Origin: Undibacterium sp. | GTDB lineage: Bacteria > Pseudomonadota > Gammaproteobacteria > Burkholderiales > Burkholderiaceae_D | Direction: 5' to 3' | Assembly: GCA_030645915.1 (NCBI GenBank) | Contig: JAUSNO010000020.1 | Span: 44,301-108,300 of the forward strand | Length of the DNA: 64,000 nt | Shown here: positions 24,573 to 60,700 of the stretch, piece after piece | Numbering within the stretch: position 1 is the stretch's first letter | Layout: every line of letters starts with the position of its first letter | Program-made: the position numbers and the translations under genes | Notes under the pieces: model-generated | What the model saw: only the letters and a program-made list of their open reading frames with translations | The model's database searches: none | What the model was told of the DNA's origin: nothing

Positions 24573-24648
24573 TCCCTGATAGCTCAGTTGGTAGAGCGAC
24601 GGACTGTTAATCCGCAGGTCCCTGGTTCGAGTCCAGGTCGGGGAGCCA
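24573..24648 (+). tRNA. tRNA-Asn(GUU), copy 1
   Basis: A 76-nt cloverleaf including an encoded CCA. The acceptor strands TCCCTGA and TCGGGGA pair (one G-T), the anticodon loop CTGTTAA gives GTT for asparagine, and the T loop GGTTCGAGTCC is standard. It lies right behind the consensus promoter. It is identical to copy 2. Confidence 0.97.
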
Positions 24649-24721: not shown

Positions 24722-24797
24722 TCCCTGATAGCTCAGTTGGTAGAGCGACGGACTGTTAATCCGCAGGTCCCTGGTTCGAGTCCAGGTCGGGGAGCCA
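24722..24797 (+). tRNA. tRNA-Asn(GUU), copy 2
   Basis: The sequence is identical to copy 1 over all 76 nt, including CCA, and begins 73 bp after it. No new promoter of similar quality lies between them, so both probably come from one transcript. A strong terminator follows. Confidence 0.97.
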
Positions 24798-34874: not shown

Positions 34875-34875
<1 letters not shown>

Positions 34876-35768
34876 TGTGGCAAACGCTTCTTCATACGCT
34901 ATTTTTTGGCTCTGCCTTTGCCTTATTTAATCCATTTGCCAACGCAACAGTAACAACATTAGATGATGCGCAGCGTAGAATCACTCTTAACAAACCAGCT
35001 CAACGGATCATCAGTCTGGCCCCCCACGCAACTGAACTACTGTTTGCGGCAGGCGCTGGCCCGCTGATTGTCGGGGTCAGCGAATACAGTGATTATCCAG
35101 AACAAGCAAAAAAAATAGCCTCCATCGGAAATATCTTTGCATTGGATCTGGAGCGCGTCATTGCACTCAAGCCCGATCTGGTCGTCGTCTGGGGAACCGG
35201 GAATGCCAAACTACTTAGCAATAAATTACGCGACAATCATATTACTGTCTTTGAGAGCGAACCTCACAATTTTGAGACGATAGCCACTTCAATGGAGCGT
35301 TTGGCGATACTCACAGGAACAGAGCCTATTGGCAAAGTCGCGGCGACAAAATTTCGCAACCGGCTAGAATCATTACGCCAGACCTACAAGCTAACAGAAG
35401 GTCAAAAATATGTGCGCGTGTTTTACCAAGTCTGGCGAAAACCGCTGATGACACTCAATGATCAGCATTTAGTGTCATCAGCTATTCGCTTATGCGGTGG
35501 ACAAAACATTTTTGCCGGCATGAAAGAAATCAGTCCGACCATCAGCGTTGAAGCGGTGCTCTCATCCAACCCTCACGCTATTATCGCCAGCTCTGGCGAA
35601 AAACAAGACGTGCTGGCTGACTGGTTGCAATTTCCGGGACTACTGGCAGTAAATAAGGCTAACTTATTTACCATTAACGGTGACTGGATGAATCGATCAG
35701 GCCCGCGCATACTCGATGGCACAGAAGTATTATGCAAGAATCTCACCAAAGTCAGAACCACACTTTAA
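34875..35768 (+). CDS. BtuF-like periplasmic corrinoid/metal-chelate binding protein
   Basis: A 297-residue substrate-binding protein of the helical-backbone type used for cobalamin and siderophores. A signal peptide (about 1-24, ending FANA) precedes TLDDAQRRITLNKPAQRIIS and LAPHATELLFAAGAGPLIVG. GVSEYSDYPEQAKKI is typical of BtuF. It has no cysteine for lipidation, so it should be soluble in the periplasm. It overlaps panC and no transporter genes follow, so it probably serves a permease encoded elsewhere, perhaps the btuCD pair near 57 kb. It is one of three such genes here. Confidence 0.82.
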
Positions 35769-38187: not shown

Positions 38188-38374
38188 TGGTTAATGTTTT
38201 ATTATCTAGTCTCATTTTTCATTGAATCGTGATGTATTCACATCAAAAATTCTGTCTCTCGTCAACTATACAACGCGGTCAGAGCAATGCGTTTATTTTA
38301 TACATCAACGTTGGCATCCTGCACATCGATCATCGTGAGTTTAAATCAAAGGTCTCGTTTCATGCTAGAGTAAC

Positions 38375-38483
38375 GGCTCGCTAGGGGTCCTGAAATAAAG
38401 AAAACACACGCTTTGCTGATGTTCTTTATCTTGGGTGAGAGAGTCCCTTCTACCTGATCTGGATAATGCCAGCGAAGGGAAGC
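38375..38483 (+). promoter_or_regulatory. TPP (THI-box) riboswitch
   Basis: The highly conserved 3' half reads ACCTGATCTGGATAATGCCAGCGAAGGGAA, quoted here only as ACCTGATCTGGATAATGCC and AGCGAAGGGAA. The 5' half GCTAGGGGTCC and the GGTGAGAG equivalent of CTGAGA are present. P1 pairs TCGCT with AGCGA. An extended P3 arm is visible as ATAAAGAA/TTCTTTAT. This aptamer binds thiamine diphosphate and normally switches off expression. It lies 77 bp before a TonB-dependent receptor. The bases 38188-38374 before it hold the promoter; nothing else is recognised there. Confidence 0.93.
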
Positions 38484-38501
38484 GCAAAGACTTTTCTTCC
38501 T

Positions 38502-38562
38502 TTGTTTGCTCCCGCGCTGCGCAGTGTCCCAACACAGCAAATCGCAAAAAGAGCAAACAATG
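38502..38562 (+). promoter_or_regulatory. Start-codon-sequestering hairpin (expression platform)
   Basis: TTGTTTGCTC (38502-38511) is the exact reverse complement of GAGCAAACAA (38551-38560), which contains part of the ribosome site AAAGAG and the first base of the ATG. If the stem forms, ribosome entry is blocked. No T-run follows, so control at translation is more likely than termination. How the aptamer state decides this fold is not worked out. Confidence 0.65.
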
Positions 38563-40719
38563 TCAAAACCTTATCTCATGTTCTCCATCATCGCTGCATC
38601 CATTGCGCAAGCATTTGCCATGACGCCCGTTGCCTTTGCACAAAATACCGACAATTCGCTTGCTGAAGTGGTTGTCACTGGCAGCAGAATTGACAAGGTG
38701 AACAGTACCAAGGCCAGCGGATTTATCGATACGCCTTTGCTGGAAACCCCACTTTCCGTTACGGTGTTTACCCAGGCACAGATGCAAGACTTGCTGATAC
38801 GCCAGACCAGCGATGCGATGAAATTCGATGCCAGCGTTAACGATGCGTACAACGCTGTCGGTTATGCAGAACAGTTCTCGATCCGTGGCTTTGCATTGGA
38901 CAATTCATCAAGTTACCGCAAGGATGGCTTCGCGGTTCCCGGCGATGCGTCCATACCATTGGAAAATAAAGAACGTATCGAGGTATTGAAGGGGATTGCC
39001 GGCTTCCAGGCTGGTTTTGCGACACCAGGTGGCATCCTGAATTACGTGACCAAGCGTCCTACCAGCACGGTCATGCGCTCCGTCACGCTGGAAGCCAGCG
39101 AGCGTGGCACCCTGTATGGCGCGGCCGATCTGGGCGGCATGTCTGATGACAAGCGATTCGGTTACCGCATCAATGCCTCAGGCGAACGTTTGCGCTCCTA
39201 CATCAAGGGTGCAAATGGCGAGCGTCAGTTTGTTTCGGCTGCATTCGATTGGCATTTGAGCAGCCAGGCCTTGCTACAAATGGATCTCGACTATCAGCAT
39301 AAGTCGCAATTAACCGCACCCGGTTTCCAGCTCAGCAACGGCATCGAGCTACCGCGCGGCATTCAAGCTGACATGATGCTCAACGATCAGCCATGGGCCA
39401 GGCCGGTTGATACCCGCAACAGCAATATCGGCCTGCGATTTGAATATCAGTTCAATACTGATTGGCAAGCATCAATTGCGGCAAACAAACATGAATTCAA
39501 GCGTGACGATTACACCGCCTTTCCTTATGGCTGCAGCTCAGCAAACCTGTATCCCGGCTATTGCGCCAATGGCGACTACGATGTGTACGACTATCAAAGC
39601 GTCAATGAAGCCAAATCGCAACTCGGCACGCAGGCATTGATCAACGGTAAATTCCTGACAGGCGCGCTCAAACATACATTCGCCGCGGGTTTATCTCACT
39701 CAGAACGTCGCGATTATTTTGGTGACTATGTGTATGCGTGGGCAGGCGTCAGTAACCTCTATCACCCAGCCGTGGTAGTGCCAGAGCCAGGTAATAAAAC
39801 GGGCGACATCCTGTTACGCCGCACGGATAAAGAATGGTCGGCATTCATGCAAGACATCATCAGCATCAACGACAGCTTAAAACTGCATGTAGGCTTGCGT
39901 CACCTGAACATTCAGCGCACGCAACTGGTCAACATTGGTACCGACATCCCTGACCTGGTTAACCGCGGTTATGAGCGCAATTACCTGCTTCCTAGTCTGG
40001 CCTTGGTCAACAAGCTTGGCGACAATTGGTCGACGTACGGCGCGTATTCGGAAGGTCTGGAGCACGGTGGCCTGGCGCCAATTCACACCACCAATGAAAA
40101 CCAGTTCATCGATCCGGCAAAATCAAAACAAGTTGAATTCGGTGTAAAGGCAGATCTGCAAAAAGATCTTAGCATTTCTGCCGCTGTGTTTCGCATCCGG
40201 AAACCGCTGGAATATACCCAAACCAATAGCGATGCCAGCACGACCTATGTCAGCAATGGCGAGGCTATACACACAGGATTGGAATTCTCCGCACAGGGCA
40301 AGTTAAACCAGGACTTCCGCATAGGTGCCAGCATGACTGCCATCGACACCAAGCAAAAAAATACGGGCGACCTCACTTTGGATGGCAAGCACGTCACCAA
40401 CGTACCATCGACCAAATCCACCTTGTGGCTCGATTACACAGTGCAGCAAGTCAAAGGCCTGGGCTTGAGCGCAGTCTGGCAGCATTCCGGCAGCAAGGCT
40501 TTTAGCCCCGACAATAGCGTAACGGTACCGGCTTACCATGTGCTCAATTTTGGTGCAAGATACGCAACGCAAATGGCCGGTAGCGCTGTGACCTTGCGCG
40601 TCCATGTTGACAATGCACTTAACAAATTTTACTGGCGTGACGTGACGCAATCTTTGGGTGGCTATCTATTTCCCGGTGCACCGCGGACTTACAAGGTATC
40701 AGCCCAGTTTGATTTTTAG
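38560..40719 (+). CDS. TonB-dependent receptor under TPP riboswitch, putative thiamine transporter
   Basis: A 719-residue outer-membrane receptor. The ORF track starts at 38506, but the ATG at 38560 opens a signal peptide ending AFAQ. The plug domain (about 35-160) has EVVVTGSRID, the TonB-box-like start, QFSIRGFALDN, ERIEVLKG and GGILNYVTKRPT. The barrel follows and ends YKVSAQFDF with the terminal aromatic residue. The plug looks like siderophore receptors, but the riboswitch upstream points to thiamine or a thiamine precursor or complex as cargo. No other thiamine genes are in the window. A terminator lies about 180 bp downstream. Confidence 0.88.
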   Translation: MSKPYLMFSIIAASIAQAFAMTPVAFAQNTDNSLAEVVVTGSRIDKVNSTKASGFIDTPLLETPLSVTVFTQAQMQDLLIRQTSDAMKFDASVNDAYNAVGYAEQFSIRGFALDNSSSYRKDGFAVPGDASIPLENKERIEVLKGIAGFQAGFATPGGILNYVTKRPTSTVMRSVTLEASERGTLYGAADLGGMSDDKRFGYRINASGERLRSYIKGANGERQFVSAAFDWHLSSQALLQMDLDYQHKSQLTAPGFQLSNGIELPRGIQADMMLNDQPWARPVDTRNSNIGLRFEYQFNTDWQASIAANKHEFKRDDYTAFPYGCSSANLYPGYCANGDYDVYDYQSVNEAKSQLGTQALINGKFLTGALKHTFAAGLSHSERRDYFGDYVYAWAGVSNLYHPAVVVPEPGNKTGDILLRRTDKEWSAFMQDIISINDSLKLHVGLRHLNIQRTQLVNIGTDIPDLVNRGYERNYLLPSLALVNKLGDNWSTYGAYSEGLEHGGLAPIHTTNENQFIDPAKSKQVEFGVKADLQKDLSISAAVFRIRKPLEYTQTNSDASTTYVSNGEAIHTGLEFSAQGKLNQDFRIGASMTAIDTKQKNTGDLTLDGKHVTNVPSTKSTLWLDYTVQQVKGLGLSAVWQHSGSKAFSPDNSVTVPAYHVLNFGARYATQMAGSAVTLRVHVDNALNKFYWRDVTQSLGGYLFPGAPRTYKVSAQFDF

Positions 40720-40927: not shown

Positions 40928-41032
40928 CCACCTTGCAATGAATTTATTGCCTTGTAAATGATGTAAATGTGCTCGCTTTTGTTCTTGCCATCGCAACCCG
41001 AAGGCATTTGTTGTCGTATTCGATTTCGTTAC

Positions 41033-43744
41033 ATGAAAAACAGCATAACTAATTCCACTCCAAGCACTCCTGAAAAAGCAGCCTCAACGCTTACCCTGGG
41101 AACAAAAACCATCCAGCGAAAACCAGCAACAGCACCAGCATCAAGGACTGTTGTCTTGCCGGTCGTCAGCCAGAACACAGAATCGATGGGGCAGACAGAG
41201 CAAGCAGACACGACAGTGGCAGCTCCTGTAGTGACCGTCGTGGTCACTAAACGCCGTTCGAGACTAGCGGCGGTTGCGGTGGAAGCATTGCCTGAAAATG
41301 CTGGCGAACCGGCAACAGCGGTCGTCGCTGACATGCTGCCAGCCGAGGTCAATGCAACAGAAATTGAAACGGCATCAGTCATTAACGAAAAAATCGAAGA
41401 AATCGCCTGCGAGACAATAGCAACGCCTGTGCAAAATGCGGCAGAAATCGACACTGAAGTTTCGCCGCTAGAAAACGTACCAGCGGTGGCAAAACCAGCT
41501 GTTGTGGTGACAAGAAAAGTATCTAAATTAATCAAAAAACCAGTTGAAGTTGCGGCGCCAGTCGCAGAATTGACAGTGCCGGAAGTCACTGCGCCGCCGA
41601 AAGCGAGCATTGCAAGCAAAACGCGTATCGCCACAGAAAAATCTAGCCCGGCGCTAGCGGCTGCTACGCTTGCCGACATCGACACTTCCGGCTATGTCAT
41701 GCCGATGTTTCGAGAAGCCGCCAAGCGTGGCCGCAAACCTTCCTCACCTCAGGTGTACAACGAAGAGATTCACGCACTCAACGCGGTCGAATCTTCAGAG
41801 CTGAAACGTGCAGCACGCTCCAAGGCAACCAAAAAATCCGGTGCAGGCGCGGTGGTCAACGAGGCCGCCACCAAAGAACAGTTGGAACAAGTACGCCTGC
41901 GACTGACCAAGTTAATTCAGCTAGGCAAGGATCGCAGCTATCTTACCCATGCCGAAATCAACGATCACTTGCCAGACAATATCGCCGATCCGGACATGAT
42001 CCTGGGCATCATCAGAACCTTGAATGATGTCGGCATTGCAGTCTATGATCAAGCGCCGGACGCCACCATGATGCTGTTGACTGACAACGTAGCGGCCGCC
42101 GTCAGCGATGACGATGCAGAAGCCACTGCCGCTGTCGCGCTCTCTACGGTTGATTCTGACTTTGGCCGCACCACTGATCCGGTACGCATGTACATGCGCG
42201 AAATGGGCGGCGTCGAACTGCTCACGCGCAGCGGCGAAATCGAAATTGCCAAGCGTATAGAAAACGGCCTGAAAGACATGCTGCAAGCGATCTCCGCTTG
42301 CCCGTCTACGCTGCAGGAAATGCTCGCCATCGCTGACAAGATCGCCAGTGACGAGCTTGCCATCGACGACATCGTCGATGGTCTGCATGATCCGGATGAA
42401 AAAGACCATGTGGCATTGAATCTGCCGATAGTCGCCGCCGACGCAGAAGCGGAAGAACTGGAAGAGGAAGATGACGAGGATGAAGAGGCCAGCGCAGAAA
42501 AGGCCAACGCCATCAGCGCCGAACAACTCTTGCAACTGAAAACCACGGTCCTGAAAAAATTTGCAACGATCGCAGTGCAATTTGAAAAAATGACGGCAGA
42601 GCATGCCAAGGGCAGCTACCAGTCAGCTGCCTACAAGACAGCGCAAGAAGCCATCTCCAGCGAATTGTTAGGCATACGCTTTAGCGTCAAGACCACAGAA
42701 AAACTTTGCGACATCTTGCGCAAGCAAATGAGCGAACTGCGCCAGACCGAAAAGAAGATGCTGGATTTATTCGTTAATAAATGCGGCATGCCACGGCAGC
42801 ATTTTATTGCTGAATTCTTGCACAACGCCACCAATCCTGGCTGGCTGGAAACCGAGATAGTCAGCACGCAAGCCTATGCCGTGCTGCTCAAGCGCCATAT
42901 CCACGCCGCCAGAGAATTGCAAGGCAAGCTCATTCATCTTGAAGAGCAAGTAAAATTGCCGCTGAGTGATTTACGCATCGTCAATAAACTGATGGTCGCC
43001 GGAGAAAAGCGCGCCAGAGACGCCAAGAGCGCCATGACCGAGGCTAACTTACGCCTGGTGATCTCGATTGCCAAGAAATATATCAACCGCGGCATGCAAT
43101 TTCTCGATCTGATCCAGGAAGGTAATATCGGCCTGCTCAAGGCAGTCGACAAATTTGAATACCGTCGCGGCTACAAGTTTTCTACCTATGCTACCTGGTG
43201 GATCAGGCAAGCGATTTCGCGCGCGATTGCCGATCAGGCGCGCACCATCCGCGTGCCGGTCCACATGATAGAAACGATCAACAAGCTCAATCGCATCAAG
43301 CGTCAGTGGATGCAACAAACCGGTACCGAACCAGACTCGGCGACGATCGCAGAGAAGATGGAACTGCCGGAAAACAAAGTGCGCGAAATCCTGAAAATCG
43401 CCAAAGAACCGGTTTCACTGGATGTGCCTATCGGTGACGACGGCGATTCGCAACTGGGTGACTTCATTGAAGACAGCATGACCCTCTCGCCAGTGGCCGC
43501 AGCAATGCAAGCTTCAGTGCAGGGCAAGCTGAAAGAGATTCTCGATTCGCTCAGCCCGCGTGAAGCCAAGGTATTGCGCATGCGCTTCGGCCTGGAAATG
43601 GCCAGCGATCACACCCTGGAAGAAGTCGGCAAGCAGTTCGATGTCACACGCGAACGCATACGCCAGATCGAAGCCAAGGCGATGAAAAAACTCCGCCACC
43701 CGTCACGCTCGGACCAATTGAAGAGCCTGCTGGAAAGCCATTAA
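41033..43744 (+). CDS. rpoD: RNA polymerase primary sigma factor RpoD
   Basis: A 903-residue sigma70, much longer than the 613 of E. coli. The first 270 or so residues are low-complexity (Ala, Val, Thr, Glu, Pro) with no known domain. Region 1.1 (about 290-350) and region 1.2 ([20 protein letters not shown]) follow, then an acidic non-conserved region with [11 protein letters not shown]. Region 2 reads [20 protein letters not shown] and [20 protein letters not shown], and region 4 [20 protein letters not shown]. It directs RNA polymerase to housekeeping promoters. The ORF track starts at 40967; ATG 41033 ([10 protein letters not shown]) is preferred. dnaG is not adjacent. Confidence 0.94.
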
Positions 43745-43962: not shown

Positions 43963-44511
43963 CTAACTGGCCAGAAACGACAGGGTGAATTGCACCTGTT
44001 CCACCCGCTCTGCCAGACTACCTTCCACCAGCAAGAACGGTATTTCCCTCTCCTCCAAAATACGCAAAAGCTCTTCGTGAATATGCTGGCGGACCGCCGC
44101 AGATTCGCGCTGCAAACCATCTGCGCTCCAGGGAAAATCGGGGGCCGTCACCAGCGTAAAGTCGTAGGTATGGGATTGTTCCAGCTGCGCCAAAGCGGCA
44201 TCAGCCTGCTGAAAATAATGCCGGCTGTAGATCGCCGTCATCAATGGGCTGGTATCGCAAAAAAGCCAGTCCCTGGCGCGCAAGGCGAATTCTTTTTCTC
44301 TTTGCACTTGGGTGGCAGCGATGAGAATTTGCTCTTCCTCTTTCGGTACGCGCTGTTGGGTATCGACAAATTCACGCAGATATTCTGGCACCCAGACAGT
44401 CTGATAATGCGCTGCCAATGCTTCAGCCAGGATGGATTTACCGGATGATTCTGCACCAAGAATCGCGACTCGCGTTATGGGCAATGCTATTGGCAATATT
44501 ATTGCTGACAT
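43963..44511 (-). CDS. NadR-like ATPase, putative nicotinamide riboside kinase
   Basis: A 182-residue P-loop kinase. GAESSGKSILAEALAAHY (Walker A, about residue 19) and VWVPEYLREFVDTQQ match the kinase half of NadR; WLFCDTSPLMTAIYSRHYF carries the substrate-side acid. The nucleotidyltransferase and regulatory domains of full NadR are absent. It would phosphorylate nicotinamide riboside once inside the cell. It overlaps the pnuC gene upstream by 13 bp, so the two form an import-and-trap pair. Confidence 0.8.
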   Translation of the reverse strand: MSAIILPIALPITRVAILGAESSGKSILAEALAAHYQTVWVPEYLREFVDTQQRVPKEEEQILIAATQVQREKEFALRARDWLFCDTSPLMTAIYSRHYFQQADAALAQLEQSHTYDFTLVTAPDFPWSADGLQRESAAVRQHIHEELLRILEEREIPFLLVEGSLAERVEQVQFTLSFLAS

Positions 44512-45092
44512 GCTTTACCCCATGCGCGCCAGCCCATCATCGCCATCACCACAAACACGGCATACAAGATAGCAGTGAGCATCAGGCCTTTATAAATATA
44601 GAGGCCGACATACAGTACGTCGACTATGATCCAGACGAGCCAGTTTTCCCTCTTTTTGCGCGATAACAGCACTTGCCCCAGCAAGCTGCCTGCGGTTAAA
44701 AAACCATCGGCATACGGTACATCCGTATCGGTAAAGGATTTCAAAAACCAGGCCAGCGCTGCAAAACCCAGCAGCCACGCAAGCAGGGACACACCCCGGC
44801 CCTGCATCGTCAGAGAAGAAACCGTCAGCACCTTACGCTCACTATCTCCCCATAGCCAGAGATGCCAACCCCAGATCGACACCAGAATGAAAACGAATTG
44901 CAAGCCCATATCGCCATACAGACGGGCATCTAAAAACACCATGGCATACAGACCGGAAGACAGGATGGAAAACAGCCAGGCCCAGTGCAACTGGCGGATA
45001 TTGAGCGCAACAGTGATGGCGGATAAAATGAAAGAAACTAATTCCAGTGGCGTGGTGCTAAAGCCTGACAGCAAGGGTAAGGTTTGATTCAT
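44499..45092 (-). CDS. pnuC: Nicotinamide riboside transporter PnuC
   Basis: A membrane protein of about 197 residues with seven expected helices. The conserved motifs are GWHLWLWG (a WxxW-type signature, near residue 75) and NWLVWIIVDVLYVGLYIYKG near the end. PnuC moves nicotinamide riboside down its gradient and relies on kinase trapping, which the overlapping gene supplies. The ORF track begins at 45233, but MNQTLPLLSGF at 45092 gives the normal length. A thiamine-carrying PnuT relative is an alternative, but the kinase partner favours nicotinamide riboside. Confidence 0.82.
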   Translation of the reverse strand: MNQTLPLLSGFSTTPLELVSFILSAITVALNIRQLHWAWLFSILSSGLYAMVFLDARLYGDMGLQFVFILVSIWGWHLWLWGDSERKVLTVSSLTMQGRGVSLLAWLLGFAALAWFLKSFTDTDVPYADGFLTAGSLLGQVLLSRKKRENWLVWIIVDVLYVGLYIYKGLMLTAILYAVFVVMAMMGWRAWGKACQQ

Positions 45093-45292
45093 GCGGTGAT
45101 TGAAGTCTTCAGGTTGAATCTTGATAGAATAGCGAACAGTTGGCGAACGAATCGGATACAAAAAAACGCAAGCGCAAAAGAATGGCGCCATTATCACTGA
45201 TAAGAACAGCATTGTCATTGCTGGCGAAAGCAAAAGCCAGATGACCGTTCACACAAGTCAATTGATTCATTTAAAAAAACTCAACCACCACC

Positions 45293-45781
45293 ATGAAAAA
45301 ACAACCTGGTTTTACGCTGATAGAAATGATGGCGGTGATCGCCATCATCGCCATTCTGGCGGCAATGGCAGTGCCATCTTATCTATTCAAGGTAATTCGT
45401 GAGCAGATAGAAGGGTCTATTCCATTGACCGACGTCGTTAAAAAACCGATCGCGCTCGCCTGGCTCACTACCCAGACTTTTCCCGCAGATAATGCTGCGG
45501 CCGGATTGCCCAGCCCGGACAATTTCGTCAATAATTATGTCAGCAGCGTTGCGATACAAGATGGGGCGATTAACATCACTTTCGGCAATCGTGCCAGCGG
45601 CCCGCTCAAAGGAAAAATATTGACGCTGCGCCCAGCGGTAGTGACGGATGCGCCTATCGTGCCTGTTACCTGGGTCTGTGCCGGAGCCGAGGCACCGGAC
45701 AAGATGACCATCATGGGAGTGGATAAAACCTCGATAGAGCAAAATCACCTGCCCCTGGCTTGTCGGCGCAGGGGCAAGTGA
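45293..45781 (+). CDS. Type IV pilin-like protein (prepilin)
   Basis: A 162-residue prepilin. The cleavage motif QPG-FTLIEMMAVIAIIAIL is at residue 5 with the conserved Glu at +5, so it is processed by PilD and assembled or anchored through the hydrophobic helix. The C-terminal part contains two cysteines (WVCAGAE and LPLAC) that could close the D-loop disulfide. The leader is only six residues. No other pilus genes adjoin it, so it is an orphan major or minor pilin. Confidence 0.85.
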   Translation: MKKQPGFTLIEMMAVIAIIAILAAMAVPSYLFKVIREQIEGSIPLTDVVKKPIALAWLTTQTFPADNAAAGLPSPDNFVNNYVSSVAIQDGAINITFGNRASGPLKGKILTLRPAVVTDAPIVPVTWVCAGAEAPDKMTIMGVDKTSIEQNHLPLACRRRGK

Positions 45782-45857: not shown

Positions 45858-48110
45858 CTAGAATTTATGTTCCAGCATGGCGCGGACAGCAACCGTGGTC
45901 GGCGTGGTCGTGGTACGCATCAAAGAACCTTTTGCGTCAACGTAGGTCGTCGCCGAGATATTATCCTGATGCAGCACGTTACCTAAAGAGACACGCAGAT
46001 TGGTCTTAGGATCAAACTTCCACAGCGCATACAAATCCAATACCCGTTTTGGTATTGAGTACGCACTCTGTTCAACCGAGATGCGCACTGGCCCGCCATT
46101 TTGAAAACTGTAGTTACCGCCCAAAGTCAGCGGCAATTGATCGAGTTTGTAATCAATGCCGACATTCGCGCTGATCGGTGTTTGTGAATCAAGACGATTA
46201 TTCGGGCCGGGCACAGAACTCAAATTCGACCAGTTAAACGAGAGATTGGAGCGAAAATCAATCGCTGGCGCATCACTCATGATAGAGCGCAAAGGGAACT
46301 TAGCCTCTAGCTCTATACCGCGGGTAGTCGCGATGCCGTCATTGATCGGCATCGCGATCCAGACACCGGTCGCATCGGATATGTCGGTGCGCGTGATGTC
46401 TTCAATCCTGCGCATGAAAACACTGGCACTGAGCATGCCACCGTCCGTCAGGTAGTGCTCGAATGCGGCATCCAGTCCCCAGGCCAGTTCTGGCTTCAAA
46501 TTAGGGTTACCCATACGATCGGGGCTGGTGGCTTTATTGTCATTCGAAATAAACCGTCGCGGGATCAAGCTACCGGTATCAGGCGCTTTATAAGTACGGG
46601 TTAAACCCAGACGCACCTGATCATTCTTGCTATCAGGGAGTTTCCATAAAGTTTGCAGGATCGGGCTCCAGACGCTGGACTTGTTATTCACTTCCGCATA
46701 AGAATTTCCCTTGCTGCTGGTGTCCAGCCCTTCCCAGCGCAAACCGGCGTAGATCGACCAGTTTTTTGAGACGTTCCATTCGTCTTGCACAAACAAGGCT
46801 AGCCGCACCACTTCAGCATCAAAAGTCTCATCGAGATTAATCGGATTGATGACAGGATCATTTACTTCAGGTTTGAAAACTTGATCATGCTGGGTACGGT
46901 TTTCGTTACGCTTGCTCAGCGCGCCATCCCAGCCAGCGGCAATTGAATGATCGGTAACGAAGGGAGCAGTATATTTGCCGCCCCAGGTGAAGCCCTGATC
47001 GCTGGCGCCGGAACTGGCCTTGCGATCCAGCGTTTGCAGGTGCTTTGCGTTATAGCCTTGGTAACCCACATCCGAACTGCGCTTGTTATAACTGACACCC
47101 AATTTCACATCGAGCTTGGCACTGTCTGCCAGCTTACGTATCCAGTTGAGATTGCTGCGTATCATGGCAAATTCAGATTCGATTTGCGTCAGGTCGCTGG
47201 CGTACAAAGGCAAATCGCCGCTACTCACCTGTTGATTGAAGCCAGAAAAACGATTCGCGTGCACAAAACTTTGCGAGGTCACGGTATCGCCATTTTCCAG
47301 GTTCCAATTCACCCGTGGCGAAAAACCAAGGCCGGTAAATGTCCCCCAATCCTTGGAGTCGGTATGCCGATCCAGCGTAGGAGTGCCATTGGCACCCTTG
47401 CCTATCTCATCGCTGCTGGAAGGACGCTCATATTTTCCGGAATTGAGATTGCCCGAGATGGAATACGACATGCGCCCAAGCTTGTCGGAAAACTGCAGAC
47501 TGACGTTAGCGCCGTATTTGCCACCCTCTTCCTGCATGCCCACTTTCAATTCACGCTGTGCCGTGACGATGGCCTTTTTCAGCACGATATTGATGGCACC
47601 GGCGATGGATTGCGTACTCAACTCGGCGGTGGCGGAACGAATCACCTCGATGCGCTCGATATTGTCGGGCGAAATGGAATCGAGCGAAAACCCCGGCGGG
47701 CTAGGCTCACCATTGAGCATGATCTGGGTGTAACCGGCCCCTAGGCCCCGCATGCGTATGCTGCCGCCGCGACCCTGTACGCCACCGATGGTCACGCCAG
47801 GCAAACGCTTTAATACATCGCCGATATTGGTATCGCCATAACGCACGATCTCTTCCTGCGTCACCACAATCTTGCTGGCGGTATCCTGACGGCGCTCGTC
47901 ATACCCTTTGGCGCCGCTGATCTCCACTTTTTGCAGCTTATCGGCAGCTGGCTTGGCCAGATTGGCTGGCTTAGTTTGCTTAGTTTGCTTAGGCAGAGCC
48001 TCAACTGCATCCTCCTTCGTGGCTTGTTGCGCATGCGTACTGGAGCCGTACGCCAACAAGAGCGAAAAAGGCAATAAAGCCAGGCGAAATGGGGACGAAA
48101 GTATAGGCAT
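45858..48110 (-). CDS. TonB-dependent receptor downstream of the cobalamin genes
   Basis: A 750-residue outer-membrane receptor. The signal peptide (about 1-28, ending SSTHAQ) is followed by a linker, then the plug: KVEISGAKGYDERR, IGDVLKRLPGVTIGG, SIRMRGLGAGYTQIMLNGEP and IERIEVIRSATAELST. The barrel ends in AMLEHKF with the terminal Phe. It reads in the same direction as cobQ, 133 bp downstream, so it may be co-expressed with the cobalamin genes. No riboswitch or clear Fur site is visible in the gap. The substrate is uncertain; corrinoid or iron chelate are both possible. Confidence 0.85.
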   Translation of the reverse strand: MPILSSPFRLALLPFSLLLAYGSSTHAQQATKEDAVEALPKQTKQTKPANLAKPAADKLQKVEISGAKGYDERRQDTASKIVVTQEEIVRYGDTNIGDVLKRLPGVTIGGVQGRGGSIRMRGLGAGYTQIMLNGEPSPPGFSLDSISPDNIERIEVIRSATAELSTQSIAGAINIVLKKAIVTAQRELKVGMQEEGGKYGANVSLQFSDKLGRMSYSISGNLNSGKYERPSSSDEIGKGANGTPTLDRHTDSKDWGTFTGLGFSPRVNWNLENGDTVTSQSFVHANRFSGFNQQVSSGDLPLYASDLTQIESEFAMIRSNLNWIRKLADSAKLDVKLGVSYNKRSSDVGYQGYNAKHLQTLDRKASSGASDQGFTWGGKYTAPFVTDHSIAAGWDGALSKRNENRTQHDQVFKPEVNDPVINPINLDETFDAEVVRLALFVQDEWNVSKNWSIYAGLRWEGLDTSSKGNSYAEVNNKSSVWSPILQTLWKLPDSKNDQVRLGLTRTYKAPDTGSLIPRRFISNDNKATSPDRMGNPNLKPELAWGLDAAFEHYLTDGGMLSASVFMRRIEDITRTDISDATGVWIAMPINDGIATTRGIELEAKFPLRSIMSDAPAIDFRSNLSFNWSNLSSVPGPNNRLDSQTPISANVGIDYKLDQLPLTLGGNYSFQNGGPVRISVEQSAYSIPKRVLDLYALWKFDPKTNLRVSLGNVLHQDNISATTYVDAKGSLMRTTTTPTTVAVRAMLEHKF

Positions 48111-49827: not shown

Positions 49828-50625
49828 TCACTTATAGCCTTGCTGCCAATCCGCAATCATCTTCTGCAATTGCGGCAAGCCGTGGGTGATCGCGGATGGC
49901 CCCGGCGATAGGATATCGGCTGATTTTATTTCAAGCACCCTGCTGTTTTTCAAGGCTGGTATCTGTTGCCAGCCTGCGCGTTCTGCCAGGGTTTCCGGGC
50001 GAAATTTTTTGCCGCACCACGAGCCTATGATGATGTCCGGCGCACGCAGAACTACCTCGTCAGGGTCGGCGATGATGCGCTCTTTGGCGCTGTGATGTTG
50101 CGCCAGATCGGCGAAGGCGTCTTCGCCGCCGGCGATGCTGATCAGCTCGGAAACCCAGCCTATGCAGCTCATCATCGGGCTGTCCCACTCTTCAAAATAT
50201 ATTTTGGGCTTGCGCGTCCACTGTGCTGCCTGGGTTTTGGCGTCAGCTATTTGCTGCTGCAGGCTGGCGATGAGTTGCGCGCCCTGCTCTTGCCTGTCAA
50301 CCAGCGTGGCCAGCACGGCGATCATGCGCAGGATGCCCGCGACATCTCTTTGGTTGAAGGCGTGCACCTCGATACCTGCACTGATTAAATCCCGGCTCAT
50401 CTCGGCTTGCATGTTCGAATACGCGATCACCAGATCTGGCTGCACGGCGAAAATGCGATCGAGCTTGGCGGATGAAAACCCGCTGATCTTAGGTTTCTCT
50501 GCGCGCGCCCGCGCTGGTCTGGTGGTGTAGCCGGAGATACCGGCGATGTATTCTTCTGCCCCCAATGCATATAGGACTTCTACCGACTCGGTAGAGAGAC
50601 AGGCAATCCTTTGGTAGTGGCTCAT
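49828..50625 (-). CDS. BtuF-like corrinoid-binding protein without signal peptide
   Basis: A 265-residue binding protein of the helical-backbone type. It starts MSHYQRIACLSTESVEVLYA, directly with the first strand of the binding domain, and has no signal sequence. The rest (GAEEYIAGISGY, KLDRIFAVQPDLVIAYSNMQ, FEEWDSPMMSCIGW) matches BtuF relatives. It is therefore predicted to stay in the cytoplasm unless an upstream start was missed. Its start overlaps the btuF stop by 4 bases. It may chaperone corrinoid between import and the cob enzymes, or be a binding protein exported otherwise; both are inference. Confidence 0.8.
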   Translation of the reverse strand: MSHYQRIACLSTESVEVLYALGAEEYIAGISGYTTRPARARAEKPKISGFSSAKLDRIFAVQPDLVIAYSNMQAEMSRDLISAGIEVHAFNQRDVAGILRMIAVLATLVDRQEQGAQLIASLQQQIADAKTQAAQWTRKPKIYFEEWDSPMMSCIGWVSELISIAGGEDAFADLAQHHSAKERIIADPDEVVLRAPDIIIGSWCGKKFRPETLAERAGWQQIPALKNSRVLEIKSADILSPGPSAITHGLPQLQKMIADWQQGYK

Positions 50626-51521
50626 GGTTTTTCTCCGCGGTGCTTGCGGGCGTTATCCATTGCTTCACACACGGCTTTGGCACCGTCGATAATGCGCGGG
50701 CCTGCACGATTGAGCTGATCGCCATCGATCGCCACCAGGTTGCGGTTTTTGACTGCCAGCATCGTGCCGAATGTTTTCCATTGCTCGATGCCGCTGACAC
50801 CCTGATTTTCGCTGTCGCCGGACAAGATCAGTTCCGGATTTTCCTGTATCACGGCCTCGGTGCTGAGCGTGGGAGCCGCCGCGCTCAGGTGGCCGAAAAT
50901 ATTTTTTCCACCGCAGACGCGGATCACATCGCTGACGATGTTTTTGTCGTTAAGGGTAAAAATCGGCTTACCCCAGACTTGATAAAAGGTGCGTACGGTG
51001 CTCTGCTTCTGGTAGCGCGCGCTGAGTTGCGACAGCTGCTGGCTAAACGCGCCAGCAGCCGCCTGCGCTTGTTTTTCGGTGCCAAATAAACTGCCTAGCT
51101 TGAGCAGGGTTTCGGGTATTTGTTCCAGCTTATGCGGTTCACTAAAATAGTAAGGAATGCCCGATTTGCGTAAGGGTTCCAGCTGGCGCTCAAAAGCGCC
51201 GTGCATCCAGACCACCAGCAGATCAGGCTTCATGGCGATGATGCGCTCGATATCGAGCTGGCGGTTATCGCCGACACGCGGTATCGCCTTGGCTGCTTCC
51301 GGGTAATCGCTGTACTTGACAGTGCCAATGATTTGCTCGCCGGCACCGGCGGCAAAAATCATTTCCGTCACATGCGGAGACAAGCTGATGATGCGTTTGG
51401 CCGGACTGGCCAGGGTGATGACGTTGCCCGCATCATCGGTCACACTGATGGCGGCATGCGCCTGCGAGGCTATCGCCTGCACGATCAGAAACAAGCTGGC
51501 TAACATCAATTTATGCATCAT
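50622..51521 (-). CDS. btuF: Periplasmic cobalamin-binding protein BtuF
   Basis: A 299-residue periplasmic protein that delivers cobalamin to BtuCD. The ORF track starts at 51587, but ATG 51521 overlaps the cobD stop (ATGA) and opens a signal peptide (MMHKLMLASLFLIVQAIASQ, ending AHA). The mature part has RIISLSPHVTEMIFAAGAGE and TVKYSDYPEAAKAIPRVGD, which are characteristic of the family. It is closely similar in form to the protein at 34875. In the operon it lies between cobD and the signal-less paralogue. Confidence 0.9.
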   Translation of the reverse strand: MMHKLMLASLFLIVQAIASQAHAAISVTDDAGNVITLASPAKRIISLSPHVTEMIFAAGAGEQIIGTVKYSDYPEAAKAIPRVGDNRQLDIERIIAMKPDLLVVWMHGAFERQLEPLRKSGIPYYFSEPHKLEQIPETLLKLGSLFGTEKQAQAAAGAFSQQLSQLSARYQKQSTVRTFYQVWGKPIFTLNDKNIVSDVIRVCGGKNIFGHLSAAAPTLSTEAVIQENPELILSGDSENQGVSGIEQWKTFGTMLAVKNRNLVAIDGDQLNRAGPRIIDGAKAVCEAMDNARKHRGEKP

Positions 51522-52552
51522 TTTTTTGTCCACGTATCTATTCCTGTTGTTGATGCCGTCGTTAATGCTGCTGTGAGTTTTTGCCACCCGGCCTCATCGG
51601 GTGGCAAGCCAAACCGCAAGCCGCGGGCGGCATCGCGAAACAATCTGACCCAGATGCCCTGCCCGGCCAGATGCTGCCAGAGCTGTTCTGTCTTGCCCTG
51701 CAATGCGGCATCACTGCACCACTGAAACAGGTGCGTACCGCTGGAAGAAAAACCGTGTTCTTGCAACAGGCGATGCAAACGTGTGCCTGCCATCTGCAAA
51801 TAGAGGCGCGTATCGATCTGCCATGCACGATCTTCTAACGCGGCATGGGCGATCTGTTGTGCAGGCCCGCTGATAGTCCAGGGGCCGAGCATATTTTGCA
51901 ATTGGATTAACAGGGAAGTCTGGGCCGCGACGAAGCCCAGACGCAAGCCTGCCAGGCCAAAAAATTTGCCGACCGAGCGCAGCACGATCAAGCCGGGCTG
52001 TGCCGTCGATGAGGCTACGCTAAGCTCACTTGCGGTATCGCCGAAAGCCTCATCGACGATCAGCCAGCCCCCGCGCCCGGCCAGTTGCGCCGCCCAGTCC
52101 AGCAAGGTCTGCGCAGCGATCGTTTCGCCGGTAGGATTATTCGGATTGCAGAGCACCATCACGTCGGCTGTCGCGACCGCAGCGCCCAGCTGATCGTAAC
52201 AACACTCTTGCACCTGATGCGCATGCTGACGCCATTGATGCGCATGCTCGGCGTAAGATGGCGCGGCCACCACGACCCGCGATGCGCCATAGTTCAGCGA
52301 ACGCAAACGCGGCAAAGCCTGTATCGCCGCCTGTGTGCCGGCCACCGCCAGCATGGCGGGTGCGCCATAGAATTCTTGTGCGGCACGAGATAAGGCTGGC
52401 AGCGTTTCCGGCAACCTGTGCCAGGCTTGGTCGGCGACGACCGGCACCGGGTAATAACGCGGATTGATACCGGTAGAGAGGTCGAGCCAATGCGCCACCG
52501 GCCTGTCATAAAGTCGTGCCGCTTCTTGCAAATTGCCGCCGTGTTCTAGCAT
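51518..52552 (-). CDS. cobD: L-threonine-O-3-phosphate decarboxylase (CobD/CobC)
   Basis: A 344-residue PLP enzyme making (R)-1-aminopropan-2-yl phosphate, the linker of the nucleotide arm. HGGNLQEAARLY and WLDLSTGINPRYYP open the protein as usual. CNPNNPTGETI, VDEAFGD and the pyridoxal lysine in SVGKFFGLAGLRLGF follow. It is named cobD in Salmonella and cobC in Pseudomonas. The product feeds the CbiB enzyme encoded upstream. The 222-bp gap before it (52553-52774) contains repeat copy E. Confidence 0.93.
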   Translation of the reverse strand: MLEHGGNLQEAARLYDRPVAHWLDLSTGINPRYYPVPVVADQAWHRLPETLPALSRAAQEFYGAPAMLAVAGTQAAIQALPRLRSLNYGASRVVVAAPSYAEHAHQWRQHAHQVQECCYDQLGAAVATADVMVLCNPNNPTGETIAAQTLLDWAAQLAGRGGWLIVDEAFGDTASELSVASSTAQPGLIVLRSVGKFFGLAGLRLGFVAAQTSLLIQLQNMLGPWTISGPAQQIAHAALEDRAWQIDTRLYLQMAGTRLHRLLQEHGFSSSGTHLFQWCSDAALQGKTEQLWQHLAGQGIWVRLFRDAARGLRFGLPPDEAGWQKLTAALTTASTTGIDTWTKK

Positions 52553-58332: not shown

Positions 58333-60186
58333 CTATTTAAAGCCGTAATTCAATCCCAAAAACACATTTGACCCAGCGGTACTGTAGTTCTTTGCCAGCT
58401 CATAGTCTTTATTTAAAACGTTGTTCCAGCGCGCAATTGCAGTCATATTGGGCGCCAGATCAAAGGTTCCGTACAAATTAAGCAAGGCATAACCAGGCAA
58501 AGATTTACTATTTGCGAGGTCATCGAAACGCCTGTCAGAGAACACACTTTCAATGCCGAACTTGGCCTTGGCGATCGTGTATTCAGCTGCCAGACTGCCA
58601 TGCTGTTTAGAACGGCGTGCCAAGCGTTTTCCAGTAGTATTATCGACAGGGTCTTGCAGATCGAGCGAAGCGCGTAAGCTCAGGGCGTCCATCTGGGTAG
58701 AGGCACCCATAGTCAGGCCGGACATCGTGGCTTTATTCACATTGGCAGCGCAGCCATATTTATAATCGGGACTGACCGGACACTTATCACCGCTGGTATA
58801 CACCAGCAAGTTCGTCGCCTTATTCTGGTAATACACGGCACTAAACTGAAAAATGCTGTCATCGTAATAAACCCCAGCTTCGGCATTTTTCGCCTGTTCC
58901 GGCTTATTCGTAGCGACACCGTAACCCGGGTAGTACAACTCATTGAACGTCGGTGCGCGGAAGCTGCTGCCATAGCTGGCATTGAGACGCAAGGCATCGG
59001 TCAATCGGTAGCCGTAGGCGATGCTGCCGGTAGTGTGTTGACCGTATTGAGAGCTGTCGTCAGCACGCGCGCTGGCGCTGGCCAGGTGTGCATCACGCTT
59101 GAGCACATACGATGCCGCAACAGAATTGGTACTACGGCTAAAACTGTGCGCTAAGCTGGTCGCGTTAACTTTTTCTTCGCGACGCTCTGCCACCAGCTGC
59201 AACACATCTTTACCGATGCTGATATCGTTCTGCCAGTTCAAACTGGTTTGCGTGGTATCGATCTGGCTCTGGCCGTAAGAGGCATTGCTATAACCTTTAT
59301 CGGCAGTCTGCGCCAGCTGAACATTGCTGAGCCAATTGTTTGCCAGTTTAGCTTTTGCATTTAAAGCTAAGGTTTCTAGCTTTTGTATGCTGCTGTCATC
59401 ATAGCCCGGGCCGGAGTCAAACTGGGATTCAAGACGACTTTGCAGGAAGTTCAAACCAAGCTCAACATCCTTGACTACCATCCAACCGAGACGACCGCTG
59501 ACACTATCCAAAGAATGGCCATCCTTATCGGCGTTGAAGCTATACTTTCCCGCTGCTGGCTTGGTCGCAGAAAAACCGTCTGCCGCCTCATGTCCTGCAT
59601 TCAAGGCAAAATTTAGGTTCTCAGCAATAGCACCGGAGATACCGACATCGATCTTACGCATGCCGTAACTGCCGAGGCCTGCGGAGACAGTGGGCGTCAT
59701 TACTTTGCCACCTTTTTTAGTAAATATCTGGATCACGCCCCCCATAGCATCGGCACCATACAAACTCGACAGCGGACCATAGACAATTTCTATGCGTTCG
59801 ATTTGCGACAAGGGAATTGCCGACCAGCTAGCGCCGCCAGTGGTAGAGGAACCTATGCGTACGCCATCGACCAACACCACGTTCTGGGCATTTGCACCAC
59901 CACGCATCAAGACTGAGGCGGCAGTTCCTGGCCCGCCATTGCGATAGATTTCTATGCCACGCTGTTGCTGTAAGAGATCAACGATGCCAGAAGCGCCGGA
60001 TTTAGCGATCTCTTCAGCATCGATGACAACATTGTCGGCCAGCACATCTTTGGCAGCCTGAATCTGGCGACCGGCCGTCACGACGACGGTAGGGGCAAAT
60101 TCAGCGGCTTCAGCGAAGGCAAAAGAGGAAGGGAATACAGCGGCCACAGCTAAACTGATGGCGAGGGGTTTACATACAGAAGTCAT
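58333..60186 (-). CDS. btuB: Vitamin B12 outer-membrane receptor BtuB
   Basis: A 617-residue TonB-dependent receptor. The ORF track begins at 60249, but ATG 60186 opens a signal peptide (ending SFAFAEA). Near the mature start is a TonB-box-like PTVVVTAGR. The plug has IVDLLQQQRGIEIYRNGGPG, SVLMRGGANAQNVVLVDGVR, IERIEIVYGPLSSLYGADAM and GGVIQIFTKKG, all very close to BtuB. The length and C-terminal LGLNYGFK end fit. It is the first gene after the cobalamin riboswitch and leads the import and salvage operon. Confidence 0.95.
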   Translation of the reverse strand: MTSVCKPLAISLAVAAVFPSSFAFAEAAEFAPTVVVTAGRQIQAAKDVLADNVVIDAEEIAKSGASGIVDLLQQQRGIEIYRNGGPGTAASVLMRGGANAQNVVLVDGVRIGSSTTGGASWSAIPLSQIERIEIVYGPLSSLYGADAMGGVIQIFTKKGGKVMTPTVSAGLGSYGMRKIDVGISGAIAENLNFALNAGHEAADGFSATKPAAGKYSFNADKDGHSLDSVSGRLGWMVVKDVELGLNFLQSRLESQFDSGPGYDDSSIQKLETLALNAKAKLANNWLSNVQLAQTADKGYSNASYGQSQIDTTQTSLNWQNDISIGKDVLQLVAERREEKVNATSLAHSFSRSTNSVAASYVLKRDAHLASASARADDSSQYGQHTTGSIAYGYRLTDALRLNASYGSSFRAPTFNELYYPGYGVATNKPEQAKNAEAGVYYDDSIFQFSAVYYQNKATNLLVYTSGDKCPVSPDYKYGCAANVNKATMSGLTMGASTQMDALSLRASLDLQDPVDNTTGKRLARRSKQHGSLAAEYTIAKAKFGIESVFSDRRFDDLANSKSLPGYALLNLYGTFDLAPNMTAIARWNNVLNKDYELAKNYSTAGSNVFLGLNYGFK

Positions 60187-60207
60187 AATCAATTCGAAAA
60201 AAGGCAT

Positions 60208-60231
60208 GCAGCCAACGTCCCCGCAGGCTGC
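60208..60231 (-). promoter_or_regulatory. Hairpin just before the btuB start
   Basis: On the minus strand GCAGCC and GGCTGC pair around a 12-base loop, followed by ATGCC and a run of six T. The run ends about 10 bases before the btuB ATG, where no good ribosome site is visible. It could be the riboswitch's terminator or a structure that hides the ribosome site. A perfect AT-rich hairpin (AAATCTGAAAT-TGA-ATTTCAGATTT, 60341-60365) lies between it and the aptamer. Confidence 0.45.
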
Positions 60232-60414
60232 GTGAATACAAAGTGCCACTGAACGAATGATGACGCATCATGCAACAACACCAAGCCTTGCCTGGAATTA
60301 ATGACATTGATACTGAATCGGTAAGTCGAATCTACATAGTAAATCTGAAATTGAATTTCAGATTTAAAAAATCGGTTGTCGAAATTTCCCCGTTCGCAGC
60401 ACTTCACTTATTCT

Positions 60415-60645
60415 GGCCGGTATCCGGGCTGACAAGCATCACCATCTGACCTTCCCATGCACATTGCACAGTGGTAATGAAGGATGGTTTACCGCGTGAA
60501 TCAGCTGCAAAATACAACTAATTAACGTGGCGCTTGTACACCGTTGCGGGGGCAGCACACTTTATGCAAATTCAAATCTAGCATTGTGTTTCCCGTTTAA
60601 CCGCAGACATGGACATGTCTGCGAGCACCAAAACAGTGCCATTTT
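60415..60645 (-). promoter_or_regulatory. Cobalamin (AdoCbl) riboswitch
   Basis: On the minus strand the conserved blocks are seen in order: GGTGCTC, AAACGGGAAAC, GCTGCCCCCGCAACGGTGT, CCACTGTGC, ATGGGAAGGTCAG and the B12 box TGTCAGCCCGGATACCGGCC. These form the adenosylcobalamin aptamer that shuts down B12 uptake and synthesis when the vitamin is plentiful. It lies 229 bp upstream of btuB and 55 bp after the PilZ gene, so it controls btuB and probably the genes behind it. The 60187-60414 stretch is its expression platform. Confidence 0.95.
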
Positions 60646-60700
60646 AAAGGCGGAACGCTTTGGCGGCAAGTTCAATTATCTTGCAAGTGCTTTTTCAGCA

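Follow-up and report, generated by a model that had tools for sequence, protein, structure and literature searches.

Why should a TonB-dependent receptor of the ferric-siderophore type be encoded directly behind a thiamine diphosphate (TPP) riboswitch? This arrangement occurs in a 64,000-nt stretch of Undibacterium DNA (the whole of which is called the window below), and the preliminary description of the locus, which rightly placed the organism among the betaproteobacteria, proposed that the receptor brings thiamine, a precursor or a bound form across the outer membrane. We find it very likely that the receptor is a vitamin B1 importer, despite the usual iron-siderophore annotation of its protein family, because the pair of sensor and gate recurs family-wide, usually next to a small kinase and a likely inner-membrane transporter for the vitamin. 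Computation directly shows the aptamer, the family to which the receptor belongs, the joint conservation of these two elements and the way they cluster with the transporter and kinase genes. The leader and the receptor comprise the following features:

38373..38497 (+), TPP riboswitch aptamer RF00059 (cmscan, inverted repeats)
38477..38489 (+), aptamer 3' strand GGGAAGCGCAAAG, putative antisequestor; its alternative partner is 38500-38513
38500..38513 (+), putative switching strand CTTTGTTTGCTCCC; its partner is the aptamer 3' strand or the ribosome site
38551..38560 (+), ribosome-site/start segment GAGCAAACAA, putative sequestor; perfect 10-bp complement of 38502-38511
38560..40719 (+), TonB-dependent receptor of 719 aa, predicted to take up thiamine or a close relative (PF07715, PF00593, TIGR01783)

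The receptor and its leader

Domain searches identified a complete receptor with plug (PF07715) and barrel (PF00593), which falls within the TIGR01783 siderophore-receptor subfamily (370.6 bits, cut-off 223.5), in agreement with its first recognition as a siderophore-like TonB receptor. The best start is the ATG at 38560, not the mechanically assigned TTG at 38506. BauA, FemA and FhuA are the nearest solved sequences, and the AlphaFold model (mean pLDDT 82.8) has a barrel fold whose best matches in the PDB are FemA, BauA and FhuA (TM about 0.8, at most 24% identity).

An Rfam covariance search (cmscan) of the whole 64-kb window placed RF00059 at 38373-38497 on the plus strand with a significant score (58.6 bits, GA 54.3, E 6.5e-9) over the full model (positions 1-105), so that the aptamer first read from the letters of the leader stands. 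It is the single TPP aptamer in the window by covariance scan against Rfam. Its P3 arm is enlarged by an insertion (inverted-repeat arms 38395-38402/38422-38429), and 62 nt separate its end from the receptor ATG at 38560. The score above the cut-off, together with the conservation described below, rules out a chance or decayed aptamer.

Lying 3' of the aptamer is a conserved strand, CUUUGUUUGCUCCC (38500-38513), with two alternative pairing partners. With the aptamer 3' strand (38477-38489) it forms a duplex of -14.7 kcal/mol in the window, which is conserved in congeners; as part of inverted repeat I3 (38502-38511/38551-38560, 100% over 10 nt) it pairs with a segment that covers the ribosome site and the start. 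The two pairings are mutually exclusive, which is the pattern expected of a translational OFF switch. High intracellular TPP would keep the aptamer folded and free the strand, which would then pair over the ribosome site and start codon and stop translation; at low TPP the strand would pair with the aptamer 3' end and the start would be open. TPP binding and a change of expression by the leader are predicted from the aptamer score and the computed alternative pairings. We regard the leader as a plausible translational OFF switch, for which we infer both the OFF logic and the translational level of control.

Evidence from related leaders is of several kinds. Two pairs of the sequestor helix are changed on both sides in L014/L015 (G-C to A-U and U-A to G-C) with pairing kept. 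Among 69 leaders, a leader's own strand pairs at -10.9 kcal/mol compared with -10.0 for swapped strands, and none of 2000 permutations was as low, although relatedness inflates this difference. Base shuffles of the window leader never gave a sequestor helix as stable (0 of 300), but the helix does not stand out in several relatives, and it is weak in L008-L010, L019 and L020. A terminator was rejected as the switch: the sole candidate stem is poor, with three G-C pairs, and is made from the aptamer 3' strand. Translational control is preferred because this terminator-like stem is weak and overlaps the aptamer. No Fur-box-like site exceeded shuffles in the window leader or in the leaders of 80 orthologs (81 in total), and iron/Fur control of the receptor was rejected on this ground.

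A second riboswitch class is also present in the window. A cobalamin riboswitch (RF00174, 65.4 bits, 60398-60646, minus strand) heads a minus-strand B12 cluster with genes for a BtuB-like receptor, BtuC, CobA, CobB, CbiB, CobD, BtuF-like proteins and CobQ; 58333-60249 (-) is listed with this riboswitch. Two more BtuF-like ORFs abut each other (49828-50625 and 50622-51587), and a further BtuF-like periplasmic protein (34875-35768, +) is grouped with panC and scpA outside the cluster. Just downstream of cobQ is a second TonB-dependent receptor (45858-48110, -), unrelated to the TPP-controlled one (about 20% identical), which may be a second corrinoid receptor.

Conservation of the riboswitch with the receptor

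We examined the association in a named sample of 80 orthologs from ten Oxalobacteraceae genera (Undibacterium, Massilia, Duganella, Janthinobacterium, Rugamonas, Pseudoduganella, Noviherbaspirillum, Telluria, Oxalicibacterium and Herminiimonas) and in a sample of 119 genomes, which overlaps with the first in some genomes and is not independent of it. The ortholog group is sharp, with identities mostly of 48-78% in congeners and several other genera and then a gap to the paralogs at about 30%. The aptamer core motif was found within 500 nt upstream of all 80 named orthologs, compared with three matches in 1.45 Mb of control sequence, and RF00059 exceeded its cut-off before 28 of 29 congener orthologs and before each of the 11 named orthologs tested from other genera.

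When listed TPP matches were crossed with receptor matches in the 119 genomes, a riboswitch lay 58-194 nt upstream of 47 of the 50 receptor matches at 45% identity or more, falling to one of three at 35-45% and one of 16 at 25-35%. The three exceptions in the highest class differ in kind: in G014 (L043) the receptor contains stops, and both its 5' part and the riboswitch are absent; in G008 the match is a second receptor fragment at a contig edge; and in G021/L017 the receptor is intact while the riboswitch is missing even at relaxed thresholds, and no PnuC homolog is present. The TPP-led receptors of the Oxalobacteraceae form one clade (100/100) in the receptor tree, enclosed in a wider clade (98/95) whose other members are near a PnuC homolog or kinase. 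In several congeners (L019, L020, L026, L027, L030-L032) the TPP-receptor leader is immediately preceded by a pair of tRNAs; the window has two tRNA-Asn genes with identical scores (24573-24645 and 24722-24794, +), 14 kb from the leader.

The genome that contains the window measures 4.17 Mb, and its nearest named receptor orthologs are from Undibacterium; a search across whole genomes likewise assigns these genomes to the genus of the window. It has two TPP riboswitches, the other of which precedes thiC on a different contig, where thiC, thiG, thiD and thiE follow in a row; thiL is also present, and a thiamine pyrophosphokinase was not found in the genome. Given thiC-G-D-E and thiL, the organism is probably a thiamine prototroph that also salvages, and auxotrophy as the reason for uptake was rejected on the basis of the same genes.

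The PnuC-family transporter and the kinase

The locus was at first taken to have no thiamine genes near it. This remains true of biosynthesis genes, none of which was seen nearby, but a PnuC-family transporter and a kinase are encoded 3.2 kb downstream of the receptor and convergent with it (PnuC itself is 3.8 kb away). The link is easily missed because rpoD separates the receptor from the pair in the window:

40967-43744, rpoD, between receptor and kinase
43963..44511 (-), stand-alone AAA_28 P-loop kinase, predicted thiamine kinase (PF13521, 128.8 bits)
44499..45233 (-), PnuC-family (PF04973) inner-membrane vitamin transporter, predicted to be PnuT-like (PF04973, TIGR01528)

The transporter scores 173.7 bits for PF04973 (cut-off 27.3) and 71.8 for TIGR01528, and its homologs suggest a start near 45095. 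The kinase, of 182 aa, matches only positions 164-320 of NadR, the ribosylnicotinamide-kinase half, and does not have the adenylyltransferase (NMNAT) half that would make it a bifunctional NadR; its nearest solved structures are NadR. No TPP riboswitch precedes the pair itself in this genome. The interval from the second TonB receptor to pnuC contains a type IV pilin-like gene (45293-45781, +).

In seven other genera the pair is directly 3' of the receptor and convergent with it, with 587-949 bp from receptor to PnuC match, and homologs of both kinase and PnuC occur within the 5-kb flank behind the receptor in 54 of the 80 named loci. Oxalicibacterium solurbis has all parts on one strand, namely TPP riboswitch, receptor, pnuC (after a gap of about 35 nt) and a kinase gene that overlaps the pnuC stop, in what is apparently one operon; its kinase is 60% identical to that of the window. 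In G107, from another family, a TPP riboswitch, a receptor (36%) and pnuC are co-directional, and receptor and PnuC apparently form an operon. The named loci with a PnuT-type transporter behind the TPP riboswitch on the same strand as the receptor are L181 and L046. Receptor and PnuC occur together in 12 genera and are both absent from 52 (Fisher p 1.4e-6, at genus level and ignoring phylogeny).

The PnuC tree places the window protein in a clade (100/99) with two PnuCs from TPP operons, apart from NadR-adjacent ones. Since it falls outside the main clade of PnuCs from gammaproteobacterial TPP operons, we call the window transporter a likely PnuT and go no further. A class-wide search with the kinase gave matches that were either longer NadR-like proteins beside PnuC or located elsewhere, and none of the 11 such loci checked had a TPP riboswitch, so that the link to the kinase is carried by the Oxalobacteraceae and G086.

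Taken together, the earlier proposal that the receptor imports thiamine, a precursor or a bound form is supported by the conservation of the riboswitch, the clustering with PnuC and the lack of a Fur box. We hold with good confidence a more specific version, in which a receptor controlled by a TPP OFF riboswitch imports thiamine or a near relative, with PnuT-like transport and trapping by the kinase. The riboswitch accompanies the receptor in ten genera and is lacking from siderophore-type paralogs, nothing like a Fur box is seen, and receptor and PnuC/PnuT cluster, all of which argue for import of thiamine or a relative. The exact ligand of the receptor (thiamine or thiamine phosphate, or else a precursor or bound form), the specificity of the transporter and the substrate of the kinase are points that we infer from this context. 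Thiamine, or a closely similar compound such as its phosphate, would cross the outer membrane through the receptor and the inner membrane through the PnuT-like protein (44499-45233), and would be trapped as thiamine phosphate by the NadR-like kinase (43963-44511); ThiL, which needs thiamine phosphate, would then convert it to TPP. PnuC operates by facilitated diffusion (PMC7221760), as does PnuT with thiamine according to the title of Jaehme 2018 (cited in PMC7749635), so that trapping by phosphorylation would be needed. Standing against this reading are the siderophore-like sequence and fold, the absence of a riboswitch before the pair, the weak sequestors in relatives and the exception of G021/L017.

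The kinase is the less secure part. We give an even chance to its being a thiamine kinase unrelated to ThiK and to thiamine pyrophosphokinase, which would have evolved from the nicotinamide-riboside-kinase domain of NadR and would complete a three-layer salvage system with receptor and PnuC. A NadR-derived thiamine kinase is an economical reading, at about one half, and a nicotinamide-riboside kinase is possible. The rival that survives best starts from this point and concerns only the inner-membrane half of the system: PnuC and kinase would import nicotinamide riboside for NAD, their position would be incidental, and the receptor alone would be the thiamine part. Since the kinase matches the ribosylnicotinamide-kinase domain of NadR and the pair in the window is without a TPP riboswitch, the pair could serve NAD; TIGR01528 also labels the transporter PnuC, and PnuC is found beside a longer NadR-like protein in other Gammaproteobacteria. 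However, the adenylyltransferase domain of NadR is missing and there is no complete NadR in the genome, the pair is close behind the receptor in over half of the named relatives, and NAD salvage is further lowered by the apparent TPP-led operon in Oxalicibacterium and by the separation of the window protein from NadR-adjacent PnuCs in the tree. We consider it rather unlikely.

A second rival, which we think improbable, has the receptor importing not thiamine itself but one of its precursors or breakdown products (HMP, thiazole, aminopyrimidines). Precursor transporters are also found under TPP riboswitches (PMC3766115), a PF02133 permease of the cytosine/purine/thiamine type follows such riboswitches in relatives from the same order, and any entry point would be useful to a probable prototroph with thiC, G, D and E. 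Yet the partner here is of the PnuC family, whose thiamine-linked member PnuT carries intact thiamine (cited in PMC7749635 and PMC5613172). The adjoining kinase would, moreover, be redundant for HMP, as thiD is present. Free precursors are also small enough for porins, which counts against a dedicated precursor receptor but is true in part for thiamine too. Finally, uptake of a ferric siderophore, with the riboswitch tying iron-dependent metabolism to TPP status, has the TIGR01783 score and the FemA, BauA and FhuA folds in its favour but is very improbable, as neither a Fur-box-like site nor, among the scanned neighbours (RarD, M90 peptidase, RpoD, kinase and PnuC), any siderophore gene marks the locus as one for ferric siderophores, the riboswitch is absent from siderophore-type paralogs, and the PnuC-family linkage is repeated.

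Comparison across the class and with known systems

Across the class there are many loci in which a TPP riboswitch leads a gene of about 2.0-2.3 kb with a PnuC-family gene behind it. Both of the large genes scanned with Pfam encode TonB receptors, others match the window receptor weakly, and the gene after PnuC encodes an APH-family (ThiK-type) kinase in five of eight loci scanned. Operons of this kind (L247-L262), made up of a TPP riboswitch, a large gene that proved to encode a TonB receptor wherever it was scanned, a PnuC-family gene and frequently an APH kinase, occur in numerous gammaproteobacterial families, and their receptors belong to another branch than the window's. Because most gammaproteobacterial TPP-operon receptors belong to this different branch of TonB receptors, the recruitment of thiamine-type receptors appears to have happened on at least two occasions. 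The exception is L254 and L255 (two genomes of one other family), in which a TPP-led receptor, 35% identical over 96% of the window receptor, runs straight into pnuC. The postulated three-layer salvage system of the Oxalobacteraceae and some relatives would, with the same even chance, parallel the receptor-PnuT-APH-kinase operons of other Gammaproteobacteria.

Several further arrangements were seen in this comparison. In G069 and G057 (L044:2802-3974, L045:6113-7327) a receptor of 40-41% identity lacks a TPP riboswitch and is followed by a kinase of the APH family, to which ThiK belongs; in G057 a PnuC homolog lies further on, past this kinase. Three Burkholderiales relatives have an extra TPP riboswitch before a PF02133 permease, of the type named above (L057:511-1815, L059:453-1745, L065:598-1926). 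In G094, two divergent TPP riboswitches lie between a sodium:solute symporter gene and a plus-strand luciferase-like monooxygenase region (L054:2544-4028, minus strand, and L054:5464-6753, plus strand).

The window receptor shares its fold and sequence family with the siderophore receptors FemA, BauA and FhuA, from which it differs in its TPP riboswitch, its PnuC-family neighbour and its lack of a Fur-box-like site. It has instead the marks of the thiamine TonB-receptor class (Omr1/OMthi), a TPP riboswitch conserved on the gene and linkage to a PnuT-type transporter. The preliminary description noted that riboswitch-controlled TonB receptors had been predicted as thiamine transporters in some other groups, and such predictions do appear in PMC2771747 (citing Rodionov 2002 and Schauer), where siderophore-like receptors near PnuT in Proteobacteria are predicted to be thiamin transporters. 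As here, these are recognized by riboswitch or PnuT neighbourhood; they are scattered, whereas one orthologous receptor extends throughout the Oxalobacteraceae. Genetic evidence comes from Bacteroides thetaiotaomicron, where mutants show that the receptor OMthi and PnuT, both associated with TPP riboswitches, function in the uptake of thiamine (PMC5613172). The OMthi (BT2390)/PnuT-Tnr3 system, compared by description only, has in common with ours a TPP riboswitch before a TonB receptor, a PnuC-family partner and a thiamine-activating enzyme, and B. thetaiotaomicron also makes thiamine itself, like the probable prototroph studied here. It differs in that the activating enzyme is a pyrophosphokinase, Tnr3, in place of a NadR-like kinase, and the window pair, unlike PnuT-Tnr3, is convergent and without its own riboswitch.

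Closer in taxonomy is a Variovorax TPP operon whose TonB receptor has been described as a predicted transporter of thiamine (PMC10409787). Also compared by description only, it agrees in order (Burkholderiales), TPP control and receptor type but, unlike here, the receptor is inside a biosynthesis operon with a permease. Transporters under TPP control turned up in nearly every lineage of a 2013 regulon survey, but Burkholderia and Ralstonia were among the exceptions (PMC3766115), so that family-wide thiamine salvage by prototrophs in the Burkholderiales is easily overlooked. Our literature search, which had most subscription journals outside its reach, found nothing on Oxalobacteraceae together with the TPP riboswitch and nothing that joins a thiamine kinase with ribosylnicotinamide kinase. 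Receptors of the Oxalobacteraceae clade (Undibacterium, Massilia, Duganella, Janthinobacterium and others) should be re-annotated as predicted to take up thiamine, and the kinase emerges from the comparison as a candidate thiamine kinase of a new type that is open to direct testing. Thiamine TonB receptors under TPP control were thus already known or predicted; what seem new are a family-wide branch of the siderophore type in the Burkholderiales and, as its partner, a candidate thiamine kinase other than ThiK.
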